DNA of 35,583 bases. Source: Burkholderiales bacterium (GTDB lineage Bacteria; Pseudomonadota; Gammaproteobacteria; Burkholderiales; Thiobacteraceae). Positions 16,900-32,180 of the stretch are shown here, one piece after another. Each line of letters opens with the position of its first letter. Positions within the stretch are counted from its first letter, which is position 1. The notes under the pieces were generated by a model. It did not search any database, was not told where the DNA came from, and saw nothing but the letters and a program-made list of their open reading frames with translations. Made by a program: the position numbers and the translations under genes. Location of the stretch: NCBI GenBank assembly GCA_018781585.1, contig JADMJT010000099.1, forward strand, positions 1 through 35,583. Direction: 5' to 3'.

Positions 16900-18315
16900 A
16901 TGCCTGCCTTGAAAACTCGCTTCGCCCCCAGCCCCACGGGCCTGATCCATTTCGGTAATGTGCGCACCGCGCTGTTCAATGTATTGCTCGCACGAAAGGA
17001 AGGTGGCGCATTCCTATTACGCATCGAAGACACGGATTTCGAACGTAGCCGCGAGGAGTATATCCAGGCGCTGATGGAAGATTTGCATTGGCTCGGTCTG
17101 GATTGGCAGGAGGGCGAGCAGGCGGGGGGGGCTGCCGCGCCTTACCGCCAATCGCAGCGTACCGCAGCGTATGAAAAGTATATGGCCGAGCTGGCGTCGA
17201 TTGATCGCGTCTACCCCTGCTTTTGTTCTGCGGTGGAGCTGGAAGTGTCGCGCAAAGTGCAAGCCGCCTCCGGCAAGCCCCCGCGCTATTCGGGCAAATG
17301 CGCGCATTTGAAGCCGGATGAAATCGTCAAGAAAAAAGCCGAGGGTTTGCCTTACACCTTGCGTTTTCGCATGCCAAAAAGCGAGGCGCTCACTTTCGAC
17401 GACGTGGTGCGGGGTGCGCAAAAGTTTCCGTCCGAGGATATCGGCGATTTCATCATTCGCCGTTCCGACGGCAGCTTCGCCTTCTTTTTCGTCAATGCCA
17501 TCGACGATGCGCTGATGGGCGTGACCCATGTGCTGCGCGGCGAGGATCATCTCACCAACACCCCGCGCCAAATCGCGCTGCTGCAAGCTTTGAGTATGGC
17601 TGCGCCGATTTACGGTCACATCTCGCTCATCGTCGATGCTCACGGCGCGCCGCTCTCCAAACGCAGCGGCAGCCTCTCGGTGCAGGAGTTGCGCGAAATG
17701 GGTTACTTTCCGATCGCCGTGAACAATTACCTCGCGCGCTTAGGCCATCATTTCGTCGAAACCGGCTTGATGGATCTGGATGCGATGTCATCAGCTTTTG
17801 ATCAATCCCACTTGGGCCGCGCCCCGGCGCGCTACGACCGCAGCCAATTGGATTACTGGCAAGCACAGGCGGTACAGCAGGCCGACGCGACTACCTTGCT
17901 GGATTGGCTCACCCCGACGCTGAAGGGCTGGGTGCCAGAAGCGTCGCTGGCTGAATTTGCACAAGCCGTGCGCGCGAATATCGTGTTCCCGCACGATGCC
18001 CGGCTCTGGGCGGAGGCGGTGTATGCCGATGCTTTGCCGATTTCCGACGATGCCCGTCAAGTACTAGATAACGCTGCGCCGAATTTTTTCCGTGCGGCGG
18101 TGGATGCGCTGGGGGATGACATGGATTTCAAAGCCTTCGCCAATCGCGTCAAGTCGGCCAGCGGCACGAGCGGCAAGAATTTGTTTTTACCGCTGAGAGC
18201 TGCGCTCACCGGTCAGACCTATGGCCCGGAAATGCCGGCGCTATTCAAGCTCATGGGGCATGCGCGGGCGCGGCATCGTCTGACGCAACACGTACTCGCC
18301 AGCGAAATCGATTAA
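16900..18315 (+). CDS. gltX: Glutamyl-tRNA synthetase
   Basis: A 471-residue class I aminoacyl-tRNA synthetase charging tRNA-Glu (and tRNA-Gln if non-discriminating). The ATP-binding motif is FAPSPTGLIHFGNVRTALFN, with HFGN at the HIGH position. LRIEDTDFERS and the KMSKS-equivalent LSKRSG follow. A zinc-knuckle region (CFCSAVELE then YSGKC) is present in the acceptor-binding part. The anticodon domain spans about residues 300-471. LTNTPRQIALLQAL and the short C-terminal domain recall the second-type GluRS of some proteobacteria, so another gltX might exist elsewhere. No Shine-Dalgarno sequence is seen before the ATG. The gene diverges from the TPR gene across 91 bases. Confidence 0.95.
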   Translation: MPALKTRFAPSPTGLIHFGNVRTALFNVLLARKEGGAFLLRIEDTDFERSREEYIQALMEDLHWLGLDWQEGEQAGGAAAPYRQSQRTAAYEKYMAELASIDRVYPCFCSAVELEVSRKVQAASGKPPRYSGKCAHLKPDEIVKKKAEGLPYTLRFRMPKSEALTFDDVVRGAQKFPSEDIGDFIIRRSDGSFAFFFVNAIDDALMGVTHVLRGEDHLTNTPRQIALLQALSMAAPIYGHISLIVDAHGAPLSKRSGSLSVQELREMGYFPIAVNNYLARLGHHFVETGLMDLDAMSSAFDQSHLGRAPARYDRSQLDYWQAQAVQQADATTLLDWLTPTLKGWVPEASLAEFAQAVRANIVFPHDARLWAEAVYADALPISDDARQVLDNAAPNFFRAAVDALGDDMDFKAFANRVKSASGTSGKNLFLPLRAALTGQTYGPEMPALFKLMGHARARHRLTQHVLASEID

Positions 18316-18444: not shown

Positions 18445-19860
18445 ATGTTGATCTACAATTCGCTCGCCCGCGATAAGCAAGTATTTCAGCCGATCAATCC
18501 CGGCGTCGTGCGTATGTACGTCTGCGGCATGACCGTGTACGACTATTGCCATCTGGGGCATGCGCGGGTGATGGTGGTGTTCGACCTGGTGTATCGCTGG
18601 CTCAAGGCGAGCGGCTTTGAGGTGAACTATGTGCGCAACATCACCGACATCGACGACAAAATCATCAAGCGCGCGGCGGAAAATAATGAGCCGATCGATG
18701 CCTTGACCGAACGCTTCATCCAGTTCATGCATGAGGATGAAGCCCGGCTTGGCATTCTGCCGCCGACGCATGAACCGCGCGCCACCCAATTCGTGCCGGG
18801 CATGGTTGCGATGATTCAAACCCTAGTGAATAAAGGTCTCGCCTATCCGGCGCCGAATGGCGATGTGTATTACGCCGTGCATCTTTTCCACGGCTACGGC
18901 AAGCTCTCCGGCAAATCGCTGGACGATTTACGTGCTGGTGAACGGGTCGAAGTGGATGTGAATAAGCGCGACCCGCTCGATTTTGTGCTGTGGAAAGCGG
19001 CCAAGCCGAATGAGCCGGCGTGGGATTCGCCCTGGGGCAAAGGCCGCCCCGGCTGGCATATCGAATGCTCGGTGATGAGCGAGCATTACCTGGGCGAGCA
19101 ATTCGACATCCACGGCGGCGGCCAGGATTTGCAATTTCCACATCACGAAAATGAAATCGCGCAAAGCGAAGGCGCGCACGACCACCCGTTCGTGAATTAC
19201 TGGATGCACAACGGCTTCGTGCGCGTGGACAACGAAAAAATGTCGAAATCGCTCGGCAACTTCTTCAGTATTCGCGAAGTGTTAGGACAATTCGATCCTG
19301 AAACGGTGCGTTTCTTTATTCTGCGCGCGCATTACCGCAGCCCCTTGAACTACTCGGATCAGCATTTACAGGATGCCAAGCAGTCGCTCGATGGGCTCTA
19401 CATAACGCTGCGTGATGTGGTGCCTGAAGCAGTGGAGATAGATTGGAGCGATGCCTATGCCACACGCTTTAAAGCGGCAATGGATGACGATTTTGACAGC
19501 CACGGCGCGATTACCGTCCTATTCGAATTGTCGCGCGAGGCGAACAAGGCTAAATCCGGCAAGTTATCTGGGCTGTTGAAAGCTTTGGGTGGGGTGCTGG
19601 GGCTGTTGCAGCAAGATCCTCCGCGATATTTGCAGGGAACGGTCTTGAATGCGAAAGCAGGGGAATGGGCTTGGGAGGTTACTCGTGGCCAGATCGTCGG
19701 AGGCTACTCGCAGGAACATATTGACCAACTCATCACCGAACGCCTCGCTGCCCGAAAAGCCAAAGACTTCACCCGCTCCGATGCGATCCGTAAGGAGTTG
19801 TCAGACGCGGGTGTAATCTTGGAAGACGGCCCGCAAGGCACGACCTGGCGCCGCGTTTAG
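18445..19860 (+). CDS. cysS: Cysteinyl-tRNA synthetase
   Basis: A 471-residue class I synthetase that charges tRNA-Cys, cytosolic and essential. The zinc site starts at Cys27 (YVCGMTVYD) and continues with WHIECSVMS and the HHE segment in [13 protein letters not shown]. The HIGH-type motif is CHLGHARV and the KMSKS motif is [10 protein letters not shown]. The C-terminus ([20 protein letters not shown]) is standard. A TAGGAG sequence lies 13 bases upstream of the ATG. Its stop is only five bases from the stop of the convergent porin gene, with no room for a terminator between them. Confidence 0.97.
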
Positions 19861-19865
19861 ATCTC

Positions 19866-21617
19866 TTATAGATCCCAACGATAGCCGATAAAGAAGAAGC
19901 TGCGCTGCGTTGTGTCCTGTTGGGTGGTGCCGTTGGTCGTGCTATGTTCGAGCCCGGCTTCGCCTTCCAAGGTGAAATTTTCTTTCATCTTGTATCCGAT
20001 GCGCACGGTCGGCGAGATGCGGGTCAGCTTTGTGCCTAGGTTGTCCTTTTGCGTATACAAACGTAGCGCACCATCCACCGTCCACTTTTCTTGAAACGTC
20101 GATAAGTTGTTGATCGAGAGCGATTGGCCATCATATTGCCGCCCCGTGATCAAGCTCCCGTTAACCACAGTAATATCTTTATCGAACACCAGTCCGGTAG
20201 CGATTGCTTGCAGGGTGTAAGTGGTCACGATGCCGGTACCCTCAGTAGCGGGCAGTGTGCCGCTGGCGCTGGTGCCAGAGACTTGCGATAGTTTGATATC
20301 GCCACCCAGTTGCCAGCGCGGGGTGAAGGGACGCGTCACGCCGAACAATAGGAAATCGGAGGTGGCGGTCAGTGCTTTGGCGCGCCGGCGCAATTCGTCT
20401 TCTGAAATGGTTTGCAGCAAGGTACGGATAGAAGTGCTGGTCTCTCCGGAAAGCGCATTGGTGGTCTGCATGGTCGGCGTTTTGCGGTGGTCGAGCAGTA
20501 GCGTGTAAGACGTGCCATCCTCGCTAATTAAATTGCCTTGGAAGAGCGCGACGTTGAGCACCTCATAGGATGCATCGTAGTCAATCAAGCTGTAGGCGGA
20601 ACGGTTCGCATCGAAGTAACGCAGCTCGGCGCCGACGGCGAGCCGATCAGTAATATCGTCGACGCGTTGGTGGATGGTGTAGACGTTGCCGCTCCAGTGC
20701 TCGGCGAAGGTGCCGCCATCCACGCTGGCGCCGTAGAAATAACGTTGAGATTCCAGATTGCTGCTTTCCGCCGGGGTGCCGATGACGCCATTCACGCGCC
20801 ACTTAGGCGCAACGCCATAGCCGCCCAAGACGCCGTCGAAGCGGCCGAGCACGCCGCCGGCGTTACCGGACTGCCGCCCCATACGCGCCGAATAGTCGTG
20901 TTCCTTGTTCTTGAGATCGAAGAATGCTGAGGTGAGGCGGTTGTCGTCCTTGCCGGTCTTGAGGAAATTCAAAGTGTGCGTGTCGCGCAGCACGAGCCGG
21001 TTGTCGTATTCGCTGCTGCGGAAACGGGCATTCAAGTCAAGGTTGGTGATGATGGAAGATTGATCAGTGCTGGAGAGGGTTGCCTTGTCGATGGTGGAGG
21101 TAGTGTTGGTGGTGATTTCGGCGTGTGTATTGCCGTAATAGTAGTTCTGCGACAAGCTGCCGAAGATCAGTGTTTCAGAAACTTCTTCGCGCTTTTTCGC
21201 TACGCGCAGCTTCGGGGTTTGGGCCGGGGCCAAATTAGCCAAGCGCTGGCGCACTCGCTCCGCGCCTTCTCCCGTTGGGTACTCTTTCAGATACAGCTCG
21301 TATTCAATTTTGGCTCTACTGATCTGCCCGTTTCGCTCGCGCGCTAAGCCGATGAGTTCTTGACCCTCTTGCTTGAATGGCGTTGGGGGAAGCCTGAGTA
21401 AACGGTTTAGTGTTCCAATCGCAAGCTCGATATCGCCTGCGCTGAGCGCTTCGCGGCCCTTGATCAAAAGCGCTTCAGCTTGGGCCTCAATGGGGCCGGC
21501 GGCGGTGCTGCTTGCGTTTGCGGTGGCTGGAGAGGGAGGAAGGGCGGTGGCGGTAGGTTCCGCCCATGAGAGGCTTGGCAGTAGGCTGGCGCAGATCAGA
21601 AGAATGGGTACCCTCAT
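19866..21617 (-). CDS. Outer-membrane beta-barrel (porin) with N-terminal TPR domain
   Basis: A 583-residue exported protein. A signal peptide (MRVPILLICASLLPSLSWA) is followed by an Ala/Pro/Thr linker (20-44) and a helical TPR region (about 45-130, with AIGTLNRLL, IEYELYLKEYP and RVRQRLANL). From about residue 150 come alternating hydrophobic/polar strands with turn residues, ending in the aromatic strand SFFFIGYRWDL, the usual beta-barrel terminus. No CxxCH is present. As the last gene of the five-gene cytochrome set it is the natural candidate for the pore that holds or passes a multiheme wire across the outer membrane, as MtrB-type porins do; its sequence does not look like MtrB to me. 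The periplasmic TPR could dock the cytochrome or peptidoglycan. A GAGGA RBS is present. Confidence 0.82.
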   Translation of the reverse strand: MRVPILLICASLLPSLSWAEPTATALPPSPATANASSTAAGPIEAQAEALLIKGREALSAGDIELAIGTLNRLLRLPPTPFKQEGQELIGLARERNGQISRAKIEYELYLKEYPTGEGAERVRQRLANLAPAQTPKLRVAKKREEVSETLIFGSLSQNYYYGNTHAEITTNTTSTIDKATLSSTDQSSIITNLDLNARFRSSEYDNRLVLRDTHTLNFLKTGKDDNRLTSAFFDLKNKEHDYSARMGRQSGNAGGVLGRFDGVLGGYGVAPKWRVNGVIGTPAESSNLESQRYFYGASVDGGTFAEHWSGNVYTIHQRVDDITDRLAVGAELRYFDANRSAYSLIDYDASYEVLNVALFQGNLISEDGTSYTLLLDHRKTPTMQTTNALSGETSTSIRTLLQTISEDELRRRAKALTATSDFLLFGVTRPFTPRWQLGGDIKLSQVSGTSASGTLPATEGTGIVTTYTLQAIATGLVFDKDITVVNGSLITGRQYDGQSLSINNLSTFQEKWTVDGALRLYTQKDNLGTKLTRISPTVRIGYKMKENFTLEGEAGLEHSTTNGTTQQDTTQRSFFFIGYRWDL

Positions 21618-21648: not shown

Positions 21649-22110
21649 TTATTTTTCGCTCTTTGGTTGGGTAGTTTCAGGGCTGCTTAGTGCGGTGACT
21701 TGCAGTGTCACACTGTAGGCATCTTTGCCCGGCTTAATCTTGTATTGGACTGGCCGCGAAAATTGGATAACAACACAATGGTTAGAGCTGGCAGCATCGC
21801 ACGATCCGCGTGGGCTATAGCTCACTGTGAACGAGGGCAGTAAATCCGAGGGCGGCGATTTCCGTTGTTCCTGTGCCTGCAGCGGTTCTGGCGTATCTAG
21901 TGCCAACAGCCGGAAATAAACCTGGATCTTGTCCCCCTTATCCTTGGGATAGTGCCGCAGGTATTGGATCTGCGAGGCGAAGCGGATATTGACCTCGGCG
22001 CCACCCGCCACCGGATTGATTTCGATCTCATCCAAGAGCTGTGCGTTCGCGAACTGCGCCAGTCCCAGTATCAGGCAAGTGAAAATCAGTTTTACAAGTG
22101 CGTTGATCAT
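21649..22110 (-). CDS. Small secreted AMIN-like periplasmic protein
   Basis: A 153-residue protein with a signal peptide (MINALVKLIFTCLILGLAQFANA, cut before QLL). A single beta-rich domain follows, resembling the AMIN-type fold (EIEINPVAGGAEVNIRFAS, then DKIQVYFRLLAL, SFTVSYSPRGSC, CVVIQFSRPVQYKI, YSVTLQV). Two Cys (in GSCDAASSNHC) could form a disulfide. AMIN-like domains usually bind peptidoglycan or partner proteins at the envelope. A strong GGGGAGA RBS precedes the ATG. It lies 21 bases after the giant cytochrome and 31 bases before the porin, so it is part of the same transcript and probably a periplasmic assembly or anchoring partner. The family call is tentative. Confidence 0.75.
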   Translation of the reverse strand: MINALVKLIFTCLILGLAQFANAQLLDEIEINPVAGGAEVNIRFASQIQYLRHYPKDKGDKIQVYFRLLALDTPEPLQAQEQRKSPPSDLLPSFTVSYSPRGSCDAASSNHCVVIQFSRPVQYKIKPGKDAYSVTLQVTALSSPETTQPKSEK

Positions 22111-22131: not shown

Positions 22132-25100
22132 TTAGAATCCCCCATCGGTGGAGCGATGTTTGCTGTCGCGCCTCTGCTTGATAGTGGTGAAGGAGCTGCT
22201 CGTATATTCGTGGCAACTCCCGGCGCAATTCTTGAGTTCGGCCACCGTGTACACGATCTTCGGGCTATCCACTTTTTTGTGCGAATCGGGCTTGAACTTG
22301 CCCGCATGGCAACCGGCGCAATCGGGTTTGTAGCCGCCGTATTGCCAAGCGATCACTTCATTATTGGTTTTGTGGCAAGTGGCACAGGTCACGCCCGCGT
22401 TATGCGGCTTATAGTATGGCGTTGTATGCGTATAGCTAGTCGCCGGCGTCCAGCCGGTGGTGCGATGGCAGGATTCGCAAGCGCGCGTGGTGATGAAGTG
22501 CCCCCCGCCCTTACCTGTGGCAGTCGCTCCATTATGGCAAGTGGCACATCCGGTCGTGATCCCTGTGTGACTCATCTTGGCACCAGCGAAACTGGTAGTG
22601 GACTTATGGCAAGTCTCGCACGCGGCAGTAGTCAGAATATGGGAACCGGTCTTACCGATCGCTGTGGAACCGTTATGGCAAGTGGCACAGCCGGTGGTGA
22701 TGCCGGTGTGATTCATCCTGGTGCCGGCGAAACTGGTAGTGGACTTATGGCAAGTCTCGCACGCGGCAGTAGTCAGAATATGGGAACCGGTCTTACCGAT
22801 CGCTGTGGAACCGTTATGGCAAGTGGCACAGCCGGTGGTGATGCCGGTGTGATTCATCCTGGTGCCGGCGAAACTGGTTGTCGACTTATGGCAAGTCTCG
22901 CAGGTGGCAGTAGTCAGAATATGTGAACCGGTCTTACCGATTGCGGTGGAACCGTTATGACAGGTGGCACAACCGGTGGTGATCCCGGTGTGATTCATCC
23001 GGGTGCCGGCGAAACTGGTAGTGGACTTATGGCAAGTCTCGCACGCGGCAGTAGTCAGAATATGGGAACCGGTCTTACCGATCGCTGTGGAACCGTTATG
23101 GCAAGTGGCACAGCCGGTGGTGATGCCGGTGTGATTCATCCTGGTGCCGGCGAAACTGGTTGTCGACTTATGGCAAGTCTCGCAGGTGGCAGTAGTCAGA
23201 ATATGTGAACCGGTCTTACCGATTGCGGTGGAACCGTTATGACAGGTAGCACAACCAGTCGTGATGCCGGTGTGATTCATCCGAGTGCCAGTGAAACTGG
23301 TGGTGGACTTGTGACACGTCTCGCATGCGGCGGTGGTGAGGATGTGCGAGCCAGACTTGCCGATGGCTGTGCTGCCGTTGTGGCAGGTGGCGCAACCAGT
23401 CGTGATGCCGGTGTGATTCATCCGGGTGCCGGCGAAACTGGTGGTGGACTTGTGACACGTCTCGCAGGCGGCGGTGGTCAGGATGTGCGAACCGGACTTA
23501 CCGATGGCTGTGCTGCCGTTGTGGCAGGTAGCACAACCAGTCGTGATGCCGGTGTGATTCATCCGGGTGCCGGTGAAACTGGTAGTGGATTTATGGCAGG
23601 TCTCGCATGCGGCGGTGGTGAGGATGTGCGAACCGGACTTGCCGATGGCGGTGCTGCCGTTATGGCAGGTAGCACAACCAGTCGTGATGCCGGTGTGATT
23701 CATCCGAGTGCCAGTGAAACTGGTGGTGGACTTGTGACACGTCTCGCATGCGGCGGTGGTGAGGATGTGCGAACCGGACTTGCCGATGGCGGTGCTGCCG
23801 TTATGGCAGGTAGCACAACCGGTAGTGATGCCAGCGTGATTCATCTTTGCGCCGAGGAACGAGGTAGTCGACTTATGGCAGGTCTCGCACGTCGCAGAAG
23901 TGGTGATGTGCGTGCCAGACTTGCCTTTAGCCGTCTTGCCGTCATGGCACGAGGCGCAGCCGGTGGTGACACCAGTGTGATTCATCTTGGTACCCAAGAA
24001 GCTGGTGGTGGACTTATGGCAGGTCTCGCACGCGGCAGAAGTCGTGATGTGCGTGCCGGACTTGCCCTTGGCGGTCGTGCCATTGTGGCAAGAGGCGCAA
24101 CCGGCGGTGACACCGGTGTGATTCATCTTGGCGCCGAGGAACGAGGTGGTCGACTTGTGACAGGTTTCGCAAGTCGCAACAGTCGTGATGTGGGTAGTCG
24201 ACTTGCCTTTAGCCGTCTTCCCGTCATGGCAGGTGGCGCAACCGGTAGTGACACCTGTGTGATTCATCTTGGCGCCGAGGAATGACGTGGTCGAAGCGTG
24301 GCAAGTCTCGCATGTCGCAGAAGTCGTGATGTGCGTGCCGGACTTGCCTTTAGCGGTCGTGCCATTGTGGCAAGACGCGCAACCGGTGGTGATGCCGGCG
24401 TGATTCATCTTGGTGCCGAGGAATGAAGTGGTCGACTTGTGACAAGTTTCGCACGCGGCATTGGTCACGATGTGCGTGCCCGACTTGCCCTTGGCCGTCT
24501 TGCCATCGTGGCAAGTAGCGCAACCGGTCGTGACACCGGTGTGATTCATCTTGGCGCCCAAGAAACTGGTGGTGGACTTATGGCAGGTCTCGCACGCAGC
24601 AGACGTCGTGATGTGTGAGCCGGACTTGCCTTTAGCGGTCGTGCCATTGTGGCAAGAGGCGCAACCGGTCGTGACACCGGTGTGATTCATCTTGGTGCCG
24701 AGGAATGAAGTGGTGGACTTGTGACAAGTTTCGCACGCGGCATTGGTCACGATGTGCGTGCCGGACTTGCCCTTGGCGGTCTTGCCATCGTGGCAAGTAG
24801 CGCAGCCGGTGGTTACACCGGTGTGATTCATGGTGGCGCCCAAGAAACTGGTGGTGGACTTATGGCAGGTCTCGCACGCAGCAGACGTCGTGATGTGTGA
24901 GCCGGACTTGCCTTTAGCGGTCGTGCCATTGTGGCAAGAGGCGCAACCGGTCGTGACACCGGTGTGATTCATCTTGGTGCCGAGGAATGAAGTGGTCGAC
25001 TTGTGACAAGTTTCGCACGCGGCATTGGTCACGATGTGTGTGCCCGACTTGCCCTTGGCCGTCTTGCCATCGTGGCAAGTAGCGCAACCGGTGGTGACAC

Positions 25101-26619
25101 CAGTGTGATTCATCTTGGTACCGAGGAATGAAGTGGTCGACTTGTGACAAGTTTCGCACGCGGCGGCAGTCGTGATATGGGTAGTCGATTTACCTTTAGC
25201 GGTCGTGCCATTGTGGCAGGAGGCGCAGCCGGTGGTGACACTGGTGTGATTCATCTTCGCGCCGAGGAATGACGTGGTCGACGTGTGACAAGTCTCGCAA
25301 GTGGCAGACGTTACGATGTGCGAACCGGACTTGCCCTTGGCCATCTTGCCGTCATGGCAAGTCGCACAACCGGTGGTGATGCCAGCGTGATTCATCTTTG
25401 CGCCGAGGAACGAGGTAATCGACTTATGGCAAGTCTCGCACGCGGCAGCAGTCGTGATGTGGGTAGTCGATTTACCTTTAGCGGTCTTCCCGTCATGGCA
25501 GGTGGCGCAACCGATGGTGACACCGGTGTGGTTCATCTTGGTACCCAAGAAGCTGGTCGTGGACTTGTGACAAGTTTCGCAAGTCGCATTCGTCACGATG
25601 TGCGTGCCGGACTTGCCCTTGGCCGTCTTGCCATCGTGGCAAGTAGCACAACCGGTGGTGACCCCGGTGTGATTCATCTTAGCGCCGAGGAACGATGCAG
25701 TTGAGGCGTGACACGTCTCGCACGCAGCGGTCGTCGCGATATGGGTAGTCGATTTGCCCTTGGCTGTCTTGCCGTTATGACAAGTCACGCAAGTGGCGAT
25801 GGCCACGGAATGGTTAAAGCTTACCCCGGCTTTATAGGTGCTGGTGGTGCGGTGGCAGATCTCGCAGTTGTCACCATTTCTGATATTGGCCGGGCTGTGC
25901 AGCGTGTCCTTGGGTTTGCCCCGCGTGCGGATATCGTTGTGGCACCCGATACAGCCGGTTGAAATGTCGAGATGGTTGAAAGCGGTGACTGGAACCCAAG
26001 CCGAAGTGCGGTGGCAGGCCGCGCAGGAGGCGATAGTCGCGATGTGTTTCGAGGATTTACCGGTCGCGATGACACCATTGTGGCAGGTGGCACAGGCGGC
26101 AGGATCAGCGCTTTTATGGTTGAATTTTGCCGGCGTCCAAGCGACAGTTATATGGCAGGAATCGCATGAGGCAGTCGTTCGAATATGGCTGGCCGATTTA
26201 CCGGGGGCGCTTTTGCCGTTATGGCAGGTGGCGCAAGTGCCGGGCGCGATGCCGGAGTGCGAGAAGATTGCGGGCGACCAAGCGCTGGTGTGGTGGCATG
26301 TATCGCAGGGTTCCGCAGTGGGGATGTGCGTAGAGGGCTTGGCGGCACCCCCCATTTTATTGCCGGCGATATGGCAATTCTGGCATTGGGTCGGGGTGCC
26401 TTTGAAAACGCCTTGCACATGGCAAGATTCGCATTTAGCGCGCGCGTGCGCCCCAGAGAGCGCGAAGCCGGTTTTAAGATGGCTGAAATTGGCGCGGGGT
26501 TTGGCTTCTGCTCCCCAACCCGGGGTCATCCAGAGCGTGGCGCAGAGCGCGGCCAGAAGGGCAAATGCCCATGCAAGCTGGCGTGCAAACGCTACATAGC
26601 TCCTCTGCCCCTGGAACAT
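22132..26619 (-). CDS. Giant secreted multiheme cytochrome c (59 CxxCH + one CX3CH)
   Basis: I start at the ATG at 26619 (MFQGQRSY), five codons inside the ORF-track start, because AGGGGG sits just upstream of it and nothing usable precedes the longer start. That leaves 1495 residues. A signal peptide (AFALLAALCATLWMTPGWGA) directs export. My hand count is 59 CxxCH motifs and one CX3CH (CAGSCH) near the C-terminus. Two hemes come first, then four degenerate di-heme units of about 47 residues with Trp (e.g. CHHTSAW), then 23 regular units, then four terminal heme sites. Each regular unit has two extra His (MNH and THI/SHI), enough for bis-His ligation of both hemes. There is no membrane anchor or lipobox. 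Between a 24-heme cytochrome and a porin, it is probably the trans-outer-membrane or extracellular wire. Confidence 0.93.
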   Translation of the reverse strand: MFQGQRSYVAFARQLAWAFALLAALCATLWMTPGWGAEAKPRANFSHLKTGFALSGAHARAKCESCHVQGVFKGTPTQCQNCHIAGNKMGGAAKPSTHIPTAEPCDTCHHTSAWSPAIFSHSGIAPGTCATCHNGKSAPGKSASHIRTTASCDSCHITVAWTPAKFNHKSADPAACATCHNGVIATGKSSKHIATIASCAACHRTSAWVPVTAFNHLDISTGCIGCHNDIRTRGKPKDTLHSPANIRNGDNCEICHRTTSTYKAGVSFNHSVAIATCVTCHNGKTAKGKSTTHIATTAACETCHASTASFLGAKMNHTGVTTGCATCHDGKTAKGKSGTHIVTNATCETCHKSTTSFLGTKMNHTGVTIGCATCHDGKTAKGKSTTHITTAAACETCHKSITSFLGAKMNHAGITTGCATCHDGKMAKGKSGSHIVTSATCETCHTSTTSFLGAKMNHTSVTTGCASCHNGTTAKGKSTTHITTAAACETCHKSTTSFLGTKMNHTGVTTGCATCHDGKTAKGKSGTHIVTNAACETCHKSTTSFLGTKMNHTGVTTGCASCHNGTTAKGKSGSHITTSAACETCHKSTTSFLGATMNHTGVTTGCATCHDGKTAKGKSGTHIVTNAACETCHKSTTSFLGTKMNHTGVTTGCASCHNGTTAKGKSGSHITTSAACETCHKSTTSFLGAKMNHTGVTTGCATCHDGKTAKGKSGTHIVTNAACETCHKSTTSFLGTKMNHAGITTGCASCHNGTTAKGKSGTHITTSATCETCHASTTSFLGAKMNHTGVTTGCATCHDGKTAKGKSTTHITTVATCETCHKSTTSFLGAKMNHTGVTAGCASCHNGTTAKGKSGTHITTSAACETCHKSTTSFLGTKMNHTGVTTGCASCHDGKTAKGKSGTHITTSATCETCHKSTTSFLGAKMNHAGITTGCATCHNGSTAIGKSGSHILTTAACETCHKSTTSFTGTRMNHTGITTGCATCHNGSTAIGKSGSHILTTAACETCHKSTTSFTGTRMNHTGITTGCATCHNGSTAIGKSGSHILTTAACETCHKSTTSFAGTRMNHTGITTGCATCHNGSTAIGKSGSHILTTAACETCHKSTTSFTGTRMNHTGITTGCATCHNGSTAIGKTGSHILTTATCETCHKSTTSFAGTRMNHTGITTGCATCHNGSTAIGKTGSHILTTAACETCHKSTTSFAGTRMNHTGITTGCATCHNGSTAIGKTGSHILTTATCETCHKSTTSFAGTRMNHTGITTGCATCHNGSTAIGKTGSHILTTAACETCHKSTTSFAGTRMNHTGITTGCATCHNGSTAIGKTGSHILTTAACETCHKSTTSFAGAKMSHTGITTGCATCHNGATATGKGGGHFITTRACESCHRTTGWTPATSYTHTTPYYKPHNAGVTCATCHKTNNEVIAWQYGGYKPDCAGCHAGKFKPDSHKKVDSPKIVYTVAELKNCAGSCHEYTSSSFTTIKQRRDSKHRSTDGGF
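22480..25722 (-). repeat. Array of 23 tandem 141-bp repeats inside the giant cytochrome gene
   Basis: The first CETCH of the regular region starts at 25722 and the first base after the array is 22479, so 3243 bases hold exactly 23 units of 141 bp with no change in length. Each unit encodes CETCH-x19-CATCH (or CASCH)-x18. Units nearer the start read SFLG[AT]KMNHTGVTTG and often alternate between a CATCHDGKTAKGK type and a CASCHNGTTAKGK type (282-bp super-unit). The last nine or ten read SF[TA]GTRMNHTGITTG with NGSTAIGK. Bases 22720-22965 and 23002-23247 are identical, 282 bases apart. Antisense ORFs with a 47-residue periodicity (e.g. 23239..24285) are shadows. Confidence 0.97.
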
Positions 26620-26649
26620 AAAACCCCCTGACATATATTGTTATTTTGG

Positions 26650-26718: not shown

Positions 26719-28509
26719 TTACTTACCAAACCCCATTTCACCCTTGATGGTTTTGAATGACGACGTCACATGGCAGCGTTCGCATTGGCGACCGAAGCTG
26801 CCATCGTGCACATCTTCTCGCTCATGGCAGCTGACGCAGGTGCCGGAGAGGCTGAGTTTGCCTGGCATCGGGCGGGTATGGCAGGCCACGCATTCCAGCC
26901 CCTTGTGCCCGCCGTCGAGCTTGAATTTGGTGCGCTGGTCGTGATCGAAATCCCATAGTTTCCAATCCCTTGCGTTGTGGCATTGGCCGCATTCGGTGCC
27001 CAGGCGCTTTTTGTGGACATCTTCTTTCGCATGGCAGGCGTTGCATTCCATGGAGGCGTCCTTGAAGGCGGGCGTCAGGTGGCATTTTTTGCATTCCACC
27101 TTGATATGCTTGCCCAGCAGGGGGAAGCGCGCCAAACCGTGATCGAAACTGGTGTCTTTCCAGTCTTTCTCGTTGTGACAGGATTCGCATTTTTTGCCTT
27201 CCTGGCCCTTGTGTTTATCGTCTTGCTGGTGGCAGGCGTAGCAGGTCGATTGCACCTTGTCCTTGTAGAGATGCCCTTTGTGGCAAGCCATGCATTTCAC
27301 CTTGATATGCTTGCCGCGCAAAGGGTATTTGGTATCGCGGTCATGCTGGAAAGTGCTGATTTTCCAGTCTTTTTCCTTATGACAGGTTTCGCATTTCTCC
27401 CCGTATTTGCCTTTATGCTCGTCTTCTTTCAGGTGGCAGGCGATACAGGCGGTTTTTAGCTTGTCGCGGTAGTTGGCGTTGGTGTGGCAAGCGGTGCACT
27501 TAGCCGCTTTGTGCTTGTCGCGTAAGGGAAATTTGGTGTCCTGGTCGTGGTTGAACGAGGTCGTACGCCACTCGCGCTCGTTGTGGCAGGATTCGCATTT
27601 CTCACCCAAGCCGCCCTTATGCACATCGTCCGCGCGGTGGCAGGCGACGCAAGTCGTTTTAAGTTTTTCTTTATATAACCCGCTCTTGTGGCAGCTCTCG
27701 CATTTCGTCGTGCGGTGTTTGCCGCGTAGGGGGTAGCGGGTTTTGTCATGATTGAAGGTCATTTCCTTCCAGTCGCGCTCGGTGTGGCACGACTCGCACT
27801 TGGCGCCGAAGCTGCCTTTATGCTTGTCGTCCTTGCGATGGCAGGATAGGCAGTCCCGCGGCACGCCCTTGAAGCGCTGGTTTTGATGGCAATCCTCGCA
27901 CTTCACGTCGGCATGCTTGCCGGCAAGGGGGAAGCGCGTTTTTTCGTGGTCGAATTTCGCGGCTTTCCAGTCGCGCTCGTTGTGGCAGGTTTCGCACGCC
28001 GCGCCCAGATTGCCTTTGTGCTTGTCGTCTTTTTTATGGCAGGCATTGCACTTGGTGGCGGTATCGCGGTACTTGACGCCGGGACGATGGCAATCGCGGC
28101 AGGCGATTTTTGCGTCGGCGTGCCCGCCTTTTAAAATAAAATCCGTCTTGGTGTGATTGAAGGATTTCTCATCCAAGGGTGCGATATGGGCGGCGCGGCC
28201 CTTGTGCTCGGTGTGGCAGGCGCGGCATTCCTGCTCGGTCAAGCGGCCATGGTAGCCCTGTTTCTGGCGCACATCGCTTGCCACGTCTTTGTGGCAATCC
28301 AGGCACAAGCCGGTTTGCGCCGCTTTGTTGAAGCGCATATGGCATTTGACGCATTCGCTTTCGTACTTGGCGTGCCCCTCGATCACTTTGCCCGGCATCA
28401 GCACCGATTCGATGCTGTCGGCGCGCGCCCCGGCAGCGCAAAAAAACATGAGAAGTATGGCGGTGAGCCAGGCCAAGCACGGCCTAATACATGTGCACTG
28501 CGATGACAT
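26719..28509 (-). CDS. Secreted 24-heme cytochrome c of tri-heme repeats
   Basis: The ORF track begins at 28698, but those first 63 codons lie out of frame within the upstream gene. The ATG at 28509 gives a proper signal peptide (CLAWLTAILLMFFCAAGARA, cut before DSIES) and 596 residues. There are 24 CxxCH motifs: three near the N-terminus, then seven tri-heme units of about 66 residues of the form CxxCH...CxxCHxxDDxHKG...CExCHxxxxW...F(N/D)H...GKH. Each unit has three further conserved His (DKH, FNH/FDH, GKH), matching its three hemes. No anchor is seen, so it is likely periplasmic. The overlap of 26 bases with the cytochrome b-like gene suggests coupled translation. It is the natural link between inner membrane and the outer-membrane cytochrome. 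Confidence 0.93.
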   Translation of the reverse strand: MSSQCTCIRPCLAWLTAILLMFFCAAGARADSIESVLMPGKVIEGHAKYESECVKCHMRFNKAAQTGLCLDCHKDVASDVRQKQGYHGRLTEQECRACHTEHKGRAAHIAPLDEKSFNHTKTDFILKGGHADAKIACRDCHRPGVKYRDTATKCNACHKKDDKHKGNLGAACETCHNERDWKAAKFDHEKTRFPLAGKHADVKCEDCHQNQRFKGVPRDCLSCHRKDDKHKGSFGAKCESCHTERDWKEMTFNHDKTRYPLRGKHRTTKCESCHKSGLYKEKLKTTCVACHRADDVHKGGLGEKCESCHNEREWRTTSFNHDQDTKFPLRDKHKAAKCTACHTNANYRDKLKTACIACHLKEDEHKGKYGEKCETCHKEKDWKISTFQHDRDTKYPLRGKHIKVKCMACHKGHLYKDKVQSTCYACHQQDDKHKGQEGKKCESCHNEKDWKDTSFDHGLARFPLLGKHIKVECKKCHLTPAFKDASMECNACHAKEDVHKKRLGTECGQCHNARDWKLWDFDHDQRTKFKLDGGHKGLECVACHTRPMPGKLSLSGTCVSCHEREDVHDGSFGRQCERCHVTSSFKTIKGEMGFGK

Positions 28510-29377
28510 GAAACACCGCGCTGAAGGCGAGCATATAAACGAAGGGGACATGCAGCACATGCCAAAGTGAAAACATGCGCTCGTAAGCAGCAAACTGATG
28601 CACGCGCTGCACTTCCGCCACGTAGTCCGCCAGCGCCGGGGTAATTTCGGCCAGGAATTTGCGCAGGGCTTGCCGATCCAGGCCGTGTTGCGCCGCATCG
28701 GTTTTAAGGGTTTTTTTCAGCGCTTGCAGGCAGTGCCGATAGGTGCGCCGCTTATACCAACCCAGGGTCATGAAGCGCCAAGCGCGGGTGATAAAGGAGC
28801 CGGAGGTGTCTTTGGCGCGCGCTTCGAAGGCTTGGAGCAGGGCTTCCGCCTGCGGCGCGAAGCGCAAGCGGGATTCCACATCCCCCGCATGCAGGCCGAG
28901 TTCCGCTTGCATTTCCTTCAGATTCGCATGGCTGCCATAGAGGCCGTGGTGAATGCGCGTGTAGATGAAACGGCCGATCACGCCGCTGCCGGCCACCAGC
29001 AGCATGGACACCAACGCTACCCCGGCATTGAGCGAGCCGATGCTGAAGGTCGAGTGAAACAAGATCAACATCGGGCCGGCGATCCCGAGAAACATGTGGG
29101 TGCGGAACCAGGGTTTGATCGGTCCCCAGCCATGCATGAAACGCAAATGTTTGCGTAGCGGGTAAGTGAGCAGCATCAGCATCATCACGCCGCCGATCAA
29201 TCCCATGTAATAGCCTAAGTCGGATCCCGCAGTGTAGTAATCGCCTTGCGCGACCAACCAGGCGGCAGCCATGGCGAGGATCAACGCGAGACTGATTCCA
29301 GCGCGCTTGATGATGGCAGCGTTAACGGCCGGCTGCCGGGCTTCGGTCTGGGGAAGGGCTGCTGCGGGATTAGTCAT
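28484..29377 (-). CDS. Di-heme cytochrome b-like inner-membrane protein
   Basis: A 297-residue membrane protein with hydrophobic segments near 26-43, 55-72, 92-112, 118-139 and 270-296, and a soluble helical domain at about 145-262. His94 and His108 in the third segment and His276 and His290 in the last are each 14 residues apart, the spacing of stacked b-type hemes in ferric reductase/NOX and cytochrome b four-helix bundles. The motif is LWHVLHVPFVYM. There is no FAD or NAD domain on this chain. It is the first gene of the minus-strand set and diverges from a ferredoxin-flavoprotein gene, which could supply the missing dehydrogenase part. It probably moves electrons between the cytosol or quinone pool and the 24-heme cytochrome. 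Heme binding is inferred. Confidence 0.8.
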   Translation of the reverse strand: MTNPAAALPQTEARQPAVNAAIIKRAGISLALILAMAAAWLVAQGDYYTAGSDLGYYMGLIGGVMMLMLLTYPLRKHLRFMHGWGPIKPWFRTHMFLGIAGPMLILFHSTFSIGSLNAGVALVSMLLVAGSGVIGRFIYTRIHHGLYGSHANLKEMQAELGLHAGDVESRLRFAPQAEALLQAFEARAKDTSGSFITRAWRFMTLGWYKRRTYRHCLQALKKTLKTDAAQHGLDRQALRKFLAEITPALADYVAEVQRVHQFAAYERMFSLWHVLHVPFVYMLAFSAVFHVIAVHMY

Positions 29378-29596: not shown

Positions 29597-30904
29597 ATGG
29601 TGTTATCGACGGAACTGATTAGCGTATTGCTCTATCTTTCTCCGCTTGCGGTCGTGATGTATTTGTATCTGCGGCGGCATGCGAAACGCGCCGCGCAGCA
29701 TGCGGGTGTGTTGCGCGAGTCGGTGGAAGCGGGGCTCAATGAGCCGCCCTCGCTGCATCCGGTGATCAACCCGAATCGTTGTATCGGCTCCGGCGCCTGC
29801 GTCAAAGCGTGTCCGGAAAAGGCGCTGGGCATCATCAACGGCAAGGGTCAGTTGATCAATGCCTCCTCCTGTATCGGCCACGGTGCGTGCCGGCTGGCCT
29901 GCCCGGTGGATGCGATTCAACTGGTATTCGGCACCGAAAAGCGCGGCGTGGACATTCCGCAAGTGCAGCCAAATTTCGAAACCAATGTGCCGGGAATTTT
30001 TATTGCCGGCGAGTTGGGCGGCATGGGGCTGATCCGCAATGCGGTGGAGCAGGGCCGGCAGGCACTGGAATCCGTTGCGCAAACAAAAGATCGCGAGGGC
30101 GAACTGGATGTGGTGATCGTCGGCACTGGCCCCTCTGGCTTATCCTCTGCTTTGGCCGCGATGGAGAAGAAGCTGCGTTTTGTCGCGGTGGAGCAAGAGG
30201 ATTCTTTGGGCGGCACGGTCTATCACTATCCGCGCAACAAGGTCGTGATGACCAGACCCATGCGCCTGCCCATGGTCGGCACGGTGAAAATGGGTGAGGT
30301 GAGCAAGGAATCTCTGCTCGAATTCTGGAATGGCATCATTCAGAAAACCGGACTCAAAATCAACTTCAACGAACGCATGGAAAAGATAGAGCAAACCGCT
30401 AGCGGCTTCGAGGTCCAGACCAATCGCCAGGTGTACCGCACGCGCAATGTGTTGCTCACCATTGGCCGCCGCGGCACCCCGCGTAAGCTGGGGGTGGCGG
30501 GCGAGGAACAGCCCAAAGTAGTGTATCGCTTGATCGACCCCGAGCAGTATCGCGGCCAGCATGTGCTGGTGGTGGGCGGCGGCGACAGCGCCTTGGAAGC
30601 GGCGCTGGCCATTGCCGATCAGCCTGGCAGCACGGTTGCCTTGTCTTACCGCAGCGAGGCATTCGGCCGGGTCAAACCCAAAAATCGGCAGCGACTGGAT
30701 GCGGCGCAAGCGGCGGGCCGCGTGCAGGTCTTGCTCAAATCGAGCGTGAAGGAAATTGTGTCTGATGCGGTGTCGATTGAGCATGATGGCCAAACCCTGT
30801 CGCTTAAGAATGACGCAGTGATCGTGTGCGCCGGCGGTATTTTGCCGACGCCCTTTTTGAAAGAGATTGGCATCATGGTGGAGACAAAACATGGCACAGC
30901 CTGA
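29597..30904 (+). CDS. Membrane-anchored ferredoxin-flavoprotein oxidoreductase fusion
   Basis: A 435-residue protein. An N-terminal membrane helix (about 5-25, ISVLLYLSPLAVVMYLYL) anchors it, then comes a ferredoxin-like domain with CIGSGACVKACP (62-73) and CIGHGACRLACP (92-103). In both motifs the second Cys of the usual CxxCxxCxxxCP is replaced (Ser65, His95). A thioredoxin-reductase-like part follows: first VPGIFIAGELGGMGLIRNAV, which resembles the usual C-terminal FAD contact, then FAD Rossmann VVIVGTGPSGLSSAL, then NAD(P) Rossmann VLVVGGGDSALEAAL. No redox CxxC disulfide is present. It probably exchanges electrons between NAD(P)H, FAD and Fe-S centres at the inner face of the membrane, in concert with the divergent cytochrome b-like protein. 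ccmI overlaps its end. Confidence 0.85.
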   Translation: MVLSTELISVLLYLSPLAVVMYLYLRRHAKRAAQHAGVLRESVEAGLNEPPSLHPVINPNRCIGSGACVKACPEKALGIINGKGQLINASSCIGHGACRLACPVDAIQLVFGTEKRGVDIPQVQPNFETNVPGIFIAGELGGMGLIRNAVEQGRQALESVAQTKDREGELDVVIVGTGPSGLSSALAAMEKKLRFVAVEQEDSLGGTVYHYPRNKVVMTRPMRLPMVGTVKMGEVSKESLLEFWNGIIQKTGLKINFNERMEKIEQTASGFEVQTNRQVYRTRNVLLTIGRRGTPRKLGVAGEEQPKVVYRLIDPEQYRGQHVLVVGGGDSALEAALAIADQPGSTVALSYRSEAFGRVKPKNRQRLDAAQAAGRVQVLLKSSVKEIVSDAVSIEHDGQTLSLKNDAVIVCAGGILPTPFLKEIGIMVETKHGTA

Positions 30905-32180
30905 AATCTGGTTCTGGATAAGCGCAATTGTGTTGACCCTGTTCGCGCTCGGGGTGGTGTTGCGCCCCTTGCTTTCCAAGCGCGAGATCGCCACACCCGA
31001 TCAGATCGAATCGAATGCCGCGATTTATCGCGGCCAACTCGACGAGTTGGAGCGGGATTTGGCCGCCGGCACGCTGGATGCCGAGCACTATGCCGAGAGC
31101 CGGCGCGAGCTCGAACGCCGTTTGTTGGAAGAAGCTTCGTCGTCCGCCTTGCCGCGCCCGCCTGTCGCGCGCCGTTGGTGTTTTGCGCTGTTGGTGGCCG
31201 CGCTTTTGCCGCTGACGGCCCTCGGTTTGTATTACCAATTGGGGCGCCCCGATGCGATTACCTACGCGCCCTTGGATAATTTGATGGCGCAGGAAAAGCC
31301 TGAGGGGCACGCGAAGGATGCAGATTTGGATCCCTTGGTGGCGCGCTTGGCGGCGCGGCTGCGCGACAAGTCGCCGGAAGACGGCGAAGGTTGGGCTTTG
31401 TTGGCGCGTTCCTATGTGGAGCTTAAGCGCCATGCCGAGGCGTCGGCGGCGTTCGCAAAAGCTGCCGCGCTGTTGCCGCGCGATCCTGTCTTACTGGTGG
31501 ATTACGCTGATGCGCTGGCCATGGCGCAGGGCAGGCGCATGGAAGGCAAGCCCGCGCAACTGGTCGAGCAAGCGCTGGCGCTCGACCCGCGCAACGAAAA
31601 AGCCTTGATGCTGGCCGCGACACACGAATTCGATCGTCACCGCTACCCTGAGGCCATTAAATATTGGGAACGCTTGAGCCATGTGGCGTCCCCAGGATCA
31701 GAATCGGCGAAAGAAGCACTAGCCAGTATTGAGGAGTCGAAAGCGATCCTATCCGGCAAGGCCGTAGCCGCAGCACCCGCCGCGCCGATCGAGGCGCCTG
31801 CCCAAGTCGTAACCGCGCCGCGTGCTGCTCCCGCTTCCATAGAGATACGCGGTGAAGTGACACTCGCACCCGCCTTGGCACGCCGCGTCAAGCCCACCGA
31901 TACCTTATTCATTTTTGCGCGCGCTGCGACTGGTCCGCGCATGCCGGTTGCGATCATCACGGCAAAGGCGAATGCGCTACCATATCTGTTCACTCTGTCG
32001 GATAGCATGAACCTGATGCCGGGCCGCAATTTGTCCGAGATGGAAAGCGTGGTGGTGGTGGCGCGCATCACCTCCTCCGGCCAGGCCACGGTGCAAAGCG
32101 GCGATCTCGAAGGCGCCACGCCGCCGCTGCGCCCCGGCGGCCAGCCAGTGAAACTGGTGATCGACCGTGTCACGCCTTAA
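30891..32180 (+). CDS. ccmI: Cytochrome c maturation protein CcmI (CycH)
   Basis: I start at the ATG at 30891 (MAQPEIWFW), eight codons inside the ORF-track start. It has GGTGGAGA upstream and overlaps the preceding stop by 14 bases. The 429-residue product has two membrane helices (about 6-25 and 92-112) around a cytosolic coil with AIYRGQLDELERDLAAGTLD. A periplasmic TPR domain follows (about 145-275), then an Ala/Pro linker and a C-terminal beta domain (IEIRGEVTLAPALA to the end) found in long CcmI/CycH proteins. CcmI holds apocytochrome CxxCH tails for the heme ligation complex. No other ccm gene is in the window. Its placement ties heme loading capacity to a cluster encoding more than 80 heme sites. 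Confidence 0.92.
   Translation: MAQPEIWFWISAIVLTLFALGVVLRPLLSKREIATPDQIESNAAIYRGQLDELERDLAAGTLDAEHYAESRRELERRLLEEASSSALPRPPVARRWCFALLVAALLPLTALGLYYQLGRPDAITYAPLDNLMAQEKPEGHAKDADLDPLVARLAARLRDKSPEDGEGWALLARSYVELKRHAEASAAFAKAAALLPRDPVLLVDYADALAMAQGRRMEGKPAQLVEQALALDPRNEKALMLAATHEFDRHRYPEAIKYWERLSHVASPGSESAKEALASIEESKAILSGKAVAAAPAAPIEAPAQVVTAPRAAPASIEIRGEVTLAPALARRVKPTDTLFIFARAATGPRMPVAIITAKANALPYLFTLSDSMNLMPGRNLSEMESVVVVARITSSGQATVQSGDLEGATPPLRPGGQPVKLVIDRVTP

Follow-up and report, generated by a model that had tools for sequence, protein, structure and literature searches.

The PCC3 gene cluster

The window, that is, the whole analysed stretch of 35,583 nucleotides, originates from a groundwater bacterium and carries an entire PCC3 porin-cytochrome cluster. 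The genes considered here are listed below in the order of their coordinates.

19866-21617, minus strand: PCC3 porin homologue, 583 aa (signal peptide, TPR-like N-terminus)
21649-22110, minus strand: small exported protein, 153 aa (blastp; conserved beside PCC3 porins)
22132-26634, minus strand: repeat-rich giant multiheme cytochrome c of 1500 aa with 59 CxxCH (Pfam, motif count)
26719-28509, minus strand: cytochrome c with 24 CxxCH, putatively periplasmic as judged from its signal peptide (Cytochrome_C7/Cytochrom_c3_2)
28484-29377, minus strand: PCC3 inner-membrane protein (IMP), 297 aa (five transmembrane segments, SGxxG at residues 131-135 in the fourth)
29597-30904, plus strand, divergent from the IMP gene: partner flavoprotein (Pfam/NCBIfam and alignment of homologues)
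30867-32180, plus strand: CcmI-like cytochrome c maturation protein (TIGR03142, PF23914, PF23892)

PCC3 was described by He et al. (2017; PMC5566968), who reported that its IMP has approximately 300 aa, five transmembrane segments (TMs), SGxxG in TM4 and Wx3Hx13H motifs in TM3 and TM5, and likened it to the ferric-reductase domain (FRD). A periplasmic multiheme cytochrome (MHC) with 21-27 hemes, a giant MHC and a porin adjoin the IMP in the published clusters (He et al., 2017; PMC5566968). The window protein has the length, the five TMs, SGxxG and the two Wx3Hx13H motifs; the protein encoded next to it has 24 hemes (range approximately 21-27), and a many-heme MHC with a low aa-per-heme ratio is also present. 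Because of these IMP and MHC features its sequence places it in the PCC3 IMP class. It is also similar to Slit_1446, the PCC3 IMP of Sideroxydans lithotrophicus ES-1, in size, TMs, SGxxG and both Wx3Hx13H motifs. That the protein is part of a PCC3 extracellular-electron-transfer cluster was missed in an earlier note on this DNA.

The reading frame of the 24-heme cytochrome is open to 28698, and its likely start is at 28509, where a predicted signal peptide (MSSQCTC...) begins and from where the gene would share 26 bases with the end of the IMP gene. The 59-CxxCH protein has approximately 25 aa per heme and is larger than most of its PCC3 counterparts; position and composition predict that it is the extracellular MHC of the cluster. 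The 583-aa protein, with a C-terminus (...GYRWDL) typical of outer-membrane barrels and homologues of 26-51% identity that take the place of the porin in 35 further loci, is the putative porin. Counterparts of the 153-aa protein in other loci either have a gene of their own or form the N-terminus of the porin. On the other strand, the start of the ccmI-like gene overlaps the end of the flavoprotein gene, and the two possibly form an operon. Also, the regions 16900-18315 and 18445-19860 appear to encode proteins resembling glutamyl- and cysteinyl-tRNA synthetases, and the PCC3 cluster would thus lie beside housekeeping genes.

Histidine pairs and topology of the inner-membrane protein

The earlier note had pointed to His94/His108 and His276/His290, each with the 14-residue spacing known from membrane-spanning b heme pairs, and had taken the protein for a stripped-down ferric-reductase-like cytochrome b. 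These are indeed the only Hx13H pairs of the 297-aa chain, which has 15 histidines in total. The first pair is within TM3 (W90-x3-H94-x13-H108) and the second within TM5 (W272-x3-H276-x13-H290). Two Hx13H pairs in two different TM segments occur in 0.5% of shuffled IMP sequences, and their chance origin is ruled out because the pairs are conserved in homologues. All four histidines are invariant in 51 of 51 PCC3-type homologues (28-90% identity), and so are W90, W272 and the S131-G132-x2-G135 residues S131, G132 and G135. In a broader family set (n = 29, down to approximately 20% identity) the invariant residues are the four histidines and two glycines only. Two sequences were left out of the set of 51: the frameshift-broken L128, and L011, which lacks His290 because its reading frame shifts at the 3' end of the gene. 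The PCC3 genes of L011 (CAMDRJ010000128.1) are on a contig labelled as a Klebsiella pneumoniae MAG, probably mislabelled or contaminated. The conserved residues suggest heme binding, and the IMP is a probable diheme b-type membrane cytochrome. The four-histidine diheme observation is, however, already published, since both the IMP motif and the FRD comparison were given by He et al. (2017; PMC5566968).

Five TMs are seen in the AF2 model (mean pLDDT 88) and in the hydropathy profile. Among the 51 IMP sequences the number of Lys and Arg residues averages 0.5 in loop L1, 5.1 in L2, 0.2 in L3 and 22 in L4, and therefore the topology is N-in/C-out. Consequently, H94 and H276 lie toward the cytoplasm and H108 and H290 toward the periplasm, and the insert between the ligand helices is cytoplasmic. 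This soluble helical segment (residues approximately 139-268), to which the earlier note had drawn attention, is present, and its AF2 helices are continuous with TM4 and TM5; it is not a hallmark of the family, as fused and small members have only a short insert or none. The earlier note had also expected the two histidine pairs to be in adjacent helices. Along the chain TM3 and TM5 are separated by TM4, and they cross the membrane in the same direction, which is also the case in FRD/NOX proteins.

Sequence and fold searches gave a mixed picture. Pfam search of the window IMP gave no match to PF01794, to prokaryotic cytochrome b561 (PF01292) or to DUF4405. Weak matches were obtained in its relatives: among the 29 family members nine matched PF01292 (best 8e-8) and ten DUF4405 (best 1e-4), and individual members had a weak PF01794 match. 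With the A6 family profile, the best PDB match was the TM domain of CsNOX (5o0t; E 1e-3), the sole PDB sequence below E 0.01, and the H-x13-H pair of TM3 is in register in the alignment, which is consistent with the ferric-reductase-like ligand geometry proposed in the earlier note. The profile of the 51 PCC3 IMPs had PDB matches confined to the helical insert. The IMP model had no Foldseek match at E<=0.001; neither had a 190-aa insert-free relative, whose top matches were bc1 cytochromes b (probability 0.77-0.80, too weak, and set aside). The hhalign comparison of the IMP with the FRD and b561 sets was not significant (3.5% vs FRD relatives), in a test without power because these two known families also missed each other.

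The FRD is recognized by two histidine pairs (x12-x14) in TM3 and TM5, and the IMP has them. Similarly to the IMP, the ferric-reductase domain of NOX/FRE proteins (PF01794; CsNOX 5o0t, SpNOX) has bis-His pairs with a spacing of 13-14 residues in TM3 and TM5, and its inner heme, on the cytoplasmic side, is served by a flavin dehydrogenase, as is proposed for the IMP. In contrast to NOX/FRE, the IMP has five TMs instead of six, a long cytoplasmic insert and no PF01794 match. Pfam search also found no dehydrogenase domain in the IMP chain, as the earlier note had recognized; the dehydrogenase is on a separate chain and of the TrxR/Fe-S type, whereas NOX has a fused FNR-type FAD/NADPH domain. Because the profile match, the six TMs and the fused dehydrogenase were looked for and are lacking, the protein is not filed as PF01794 or NOX, and its description as stripped-down, i.e., derived from NOX by loss, is not supported by the TM number, the Pfam search or the fold search, the last of which gave no significant match. 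As judged from its sequence, the IMP may nevertheless work like the FRD/NOX membrane module. A precedent for a dehydrogenase on its own chain is the MsrQ-Fre system of E. coli, where the FRD membrane protein and the NAD(P)H flavin reductase that reduces it are two distinct proteins. The acceptor of MsrQ is MsrP, while the proposed acceptor of the IMP is a multiheme wire, and Fre is soluble and, unlike the flavoprotein of the IMP, is not known to have Fe-S clusters or a TM.

The flavoprotein partner and the wider family

The flavoprotein has an N-terminal TM (residues approximately 5-25) with positive charge after the anchor, two Fe-S motifs (C62-x2-S65-x2-C68-x3-C72 and C92-x2-H95-x2-C98-x3-C102) and, C-terminal to them, TrxR/YpdA-like FAD and NAD(P) domains. 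In 44 homologues six cysteines are invariant and His95 is present in all 44; position 65 is Cys in 32, Ser in 11, including the clade of the window, and Thr in one. CxxC is absent from the flavin part in 44/44. Given the anchor, the invariant cysteines and His95, the FAD and NAD(P) domains and the absence of CxxC, the protein seems made for electron transfer and not for disulfide reduction. The C-x2-H-x2-C-x3-C second motif, also found in 44/44, suggests a Cys3His [4Fe-4S] or [3Fe-4S] cluster. Two other readings were discarded: two [4Fe-4S] clusters on eight cysteines are excluded by the six invariant Cys, the Cys/Ser alternation at position 65 and His95, and a YpdA/bacillithiol or thioredoxin reductase is excluded by scores below the model cut-offs and by the lack of CxxC. 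In most other PCC3 loci (L090-L117 and others) the gene after the flavoprotein, on the same strand, encodes a Sel1- and ankyrin-repeat protein of 650-720 aa with a signal-like start; the window has ccmI at this place.

The earlier note had seen a flavoprotein gene lying divergently beside the IMP gene, and in the genome samples such a flavoprotein proved to be a regular companion of the IMP. Among 369 genomes of the class, a strong IMP match was found in 42 and the flavoprotein in 43; both were present in 41 genomes, the IMP only in one and the flavoprotein only in two (Fisher p 7e-51). In a phylum-wide sample of 299 genomes, the IMP was accompanied by the flavoprotein in four of four cases. 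Counting both samples, the flavoprotein was on the same contig within 15 kb in 43 of 49 IMP copies, and within 3 kb and divergent in 36 of 49. Five genomes with two copies had two IMPs and two flavoproteins each. The flavoprotein is a near-obligate partner of the PCC3 IMP, with the co-occurrence being partly a consequence of belonging to one gene cluster. In their text, He et al. (2017; PMC5566968) do not mention the flavoprotein or use the words "thioredoxin" or "ferredoxin"; their cluster maps may show the gene. In a literature search covering main texts, no other paper tying such a flavoprotein to PCC3 was found. What is new here is that the IMP is nearly always accompanied by a flavin/Fe-S protein resembling NAD(P)H dehydrogenases.

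PCC4 IMPs and other five-TM IMPs found near MHCs have other dehydrogenase partners. A cNMP/FHA-type IMP group is linked to the PCC3 IMPs by profile comparison, with an hhalign probability of 99.5% (E 1.7e-22); He et al. (2017; PMC5566968) had seen no significant homology of PCC3 IMPs to those of PCC4. Many distant IMPs have other flavin dehydrogenase genes directly upstream. These are of the FNR plus Fer2 type in L137, L236, L250, L252, L255, L151 and L153, with the ferric-reductase NAD-binding domain PF08030 among the matches in L137 and L250, and of the TrxR plus cNMP plus 4Fe-4S type in L138, L139, L156 and L241, to which L238, L242 and L247 were added on the basis of their ends alone. L140 and L141 are natural fusions of the IMP with Pyr_redox_2, rubredoxin-reductase and BFD domains, and a decaheme cytochrome is encoded next to them, downstream. 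In a tree of 29 IMPs the PCC3, FNR-Fer2, TM-FNR, TrxR-cNMP and fused types form separate, well supported clades, the support covering the clades and not their order. Such a neighbor is lacking in some members of the TM-FNR and TrxR-cNMP clades, and a sizeable minority of the distant loci examined (L243-L246, L248, L249 and L145-L149 among them) have no flavin dehydrogenase next door; because of such IMPs the flavin partner is not a constant feature of the family at large. Altogether the results point to a family-wide five-TM diheme module without its own Pfam model.

Two further arrangements were seen in the distant loci. In L150 (7665-11463) an IMP-like membrane protein with a weak profile match has as its neighbor a molybdopterin oxidoreductase that carries an Fe-S domain. 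L145, L146, L156 and L241 have a decaheme cytochrome with an FHA-like start together with the IMP, and in L156 and L241 also the TrxR-cNMP-4Fe-4S fusion; these clusters look like another system of the extracellular-electron-transfer type, possibly controlled by cyclic nucleotides.

Routes of electrons through the conduit

PCC3 clusters are among the largest predicted trans-envelope electron conduits, and published models link them to the quinone pool. The near-obligate flavin/Fe-S partner and the recurrent dehydrogenases offer a concrete, testable alternative, direct coupling to NAD(P)H. We give a probability of about 0.5 to the reading that the IMP and the flavoprotein are a split, two-piece, NOX-like conduit that links NAD(P)H to the PCC3 wire. 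It is favored by the co-occurrence of the two proteins, the build of the flavoprotein, the recurrent dehydrogenases and fusions, the NOX TM domain as the best PDB profile match, and the topology, by which the insert and the inner heme are on the side of the flavoprotein. NAD(P)H in the cytosol would reduce the FAD of the flavoprotein, and electrons would pass via its Fe-S clusters, in direct contact with the IMP, to the inner of two b hemes stacked across the membrane, with H94/H276 on the cytoplasmic and H108/H290 on the periplasmic side. From the outer heme they would continue to the 24-heme periplasmic cytochrome, through the porin, and to the 59-CxxCH surface cytochrome, independently of quinones. 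Outward flow is favored because NAD(P)H has a low potential and the inside-negative membrane potential drives electrons out, a reasoning (redox downhill, membrane potential) that is textbook energetics. More tentatively, PCC3 as a whole could be a five-part, NAD(P)H-driven and quinone-bypassing system, in which a TM-anchored Fe-S flavoprotein with a Cys3His second cluster reduces a five-TM diheme b module, and this module passes electrons to a 24-heme plus 59-CxxCH wire across the outer membrane. In this view the module would be a plug-in that evolution has combined, in some cases by fusion, with four or more kinds of flavin dehydrogenase.

The main rival, which we consider rather unlikely, is a quinone-linked cytochrome b, with the IMP connecting the PCC3 wire to the quinone pool, in the sense of electron uptake from a donor outside the cell, and the flavoprotein being an accessory or regulator. 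Coupling to the quinone pool is the model proposed for the PCC3 IMP by He et al. (2017; PMC5566968). The Hx13H spacing is bc1-like, and the relevant fold matches of highest probability, though not significant, are bc1/b6 cytochromes b. Expression data point both ways: one PCC3 IMP gene of Sideroxydans CL21 increases with the ability to oxidize iron (PMC12442390), whereas in Sideroxydans ES-1 both PCC3 clusters go down on Fe(II) as compared with thiosulfate (PMC8788666). A quinone link also leaves the near-obligate flavin/Fe-S partner, the fusions and the repeated NAD(P)H-type dehydrogenases unexplained.

An inward conduit, where an extracellular donor reduces the flavoprotein and the electrons continue to NAD(P)+, or to some other acceptor of low potential, for use in biosynthesis, is improbable. 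PCC3 is known from iron oxidizers (He et al., 2017; PMC5566968), and the relatives of the host are lithotroph-like (Thiobacillus, Gallionella and Hydrogenophilales loci), but transfer from Fe(II)-range potentials to NAD(P)+ would, on textbook energetics, be strongly uphill, and the module appears to have no ion-pumping part. It is very improbable that the flavoprotein has its role in cytochrome c maturation or thiol redox and owes its place near the IMP solely to PCC3 and ccm genes traveling together, as the position of ccmI after the flavoprotein gene in the window and the presence of ccm genes in other loci might suggest, given that no CxxC is found in 44/44 FAD domains and that the next gene in most other loci is ankyrin/Sel1 and not ccm.

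In another genome (G271:C17:43021-55236, from position 11022 of L107 into L157) a single ORF of 4071 aa with 133 CxxCH, or 144 Cx2-4CH, is next to a PCC3 IMP gene; the assembly was taken as given and spans repeats. As assembled, this ORF exceeds the 85-heme protein that was the largest according to He et al. (2017; PMC5566968).
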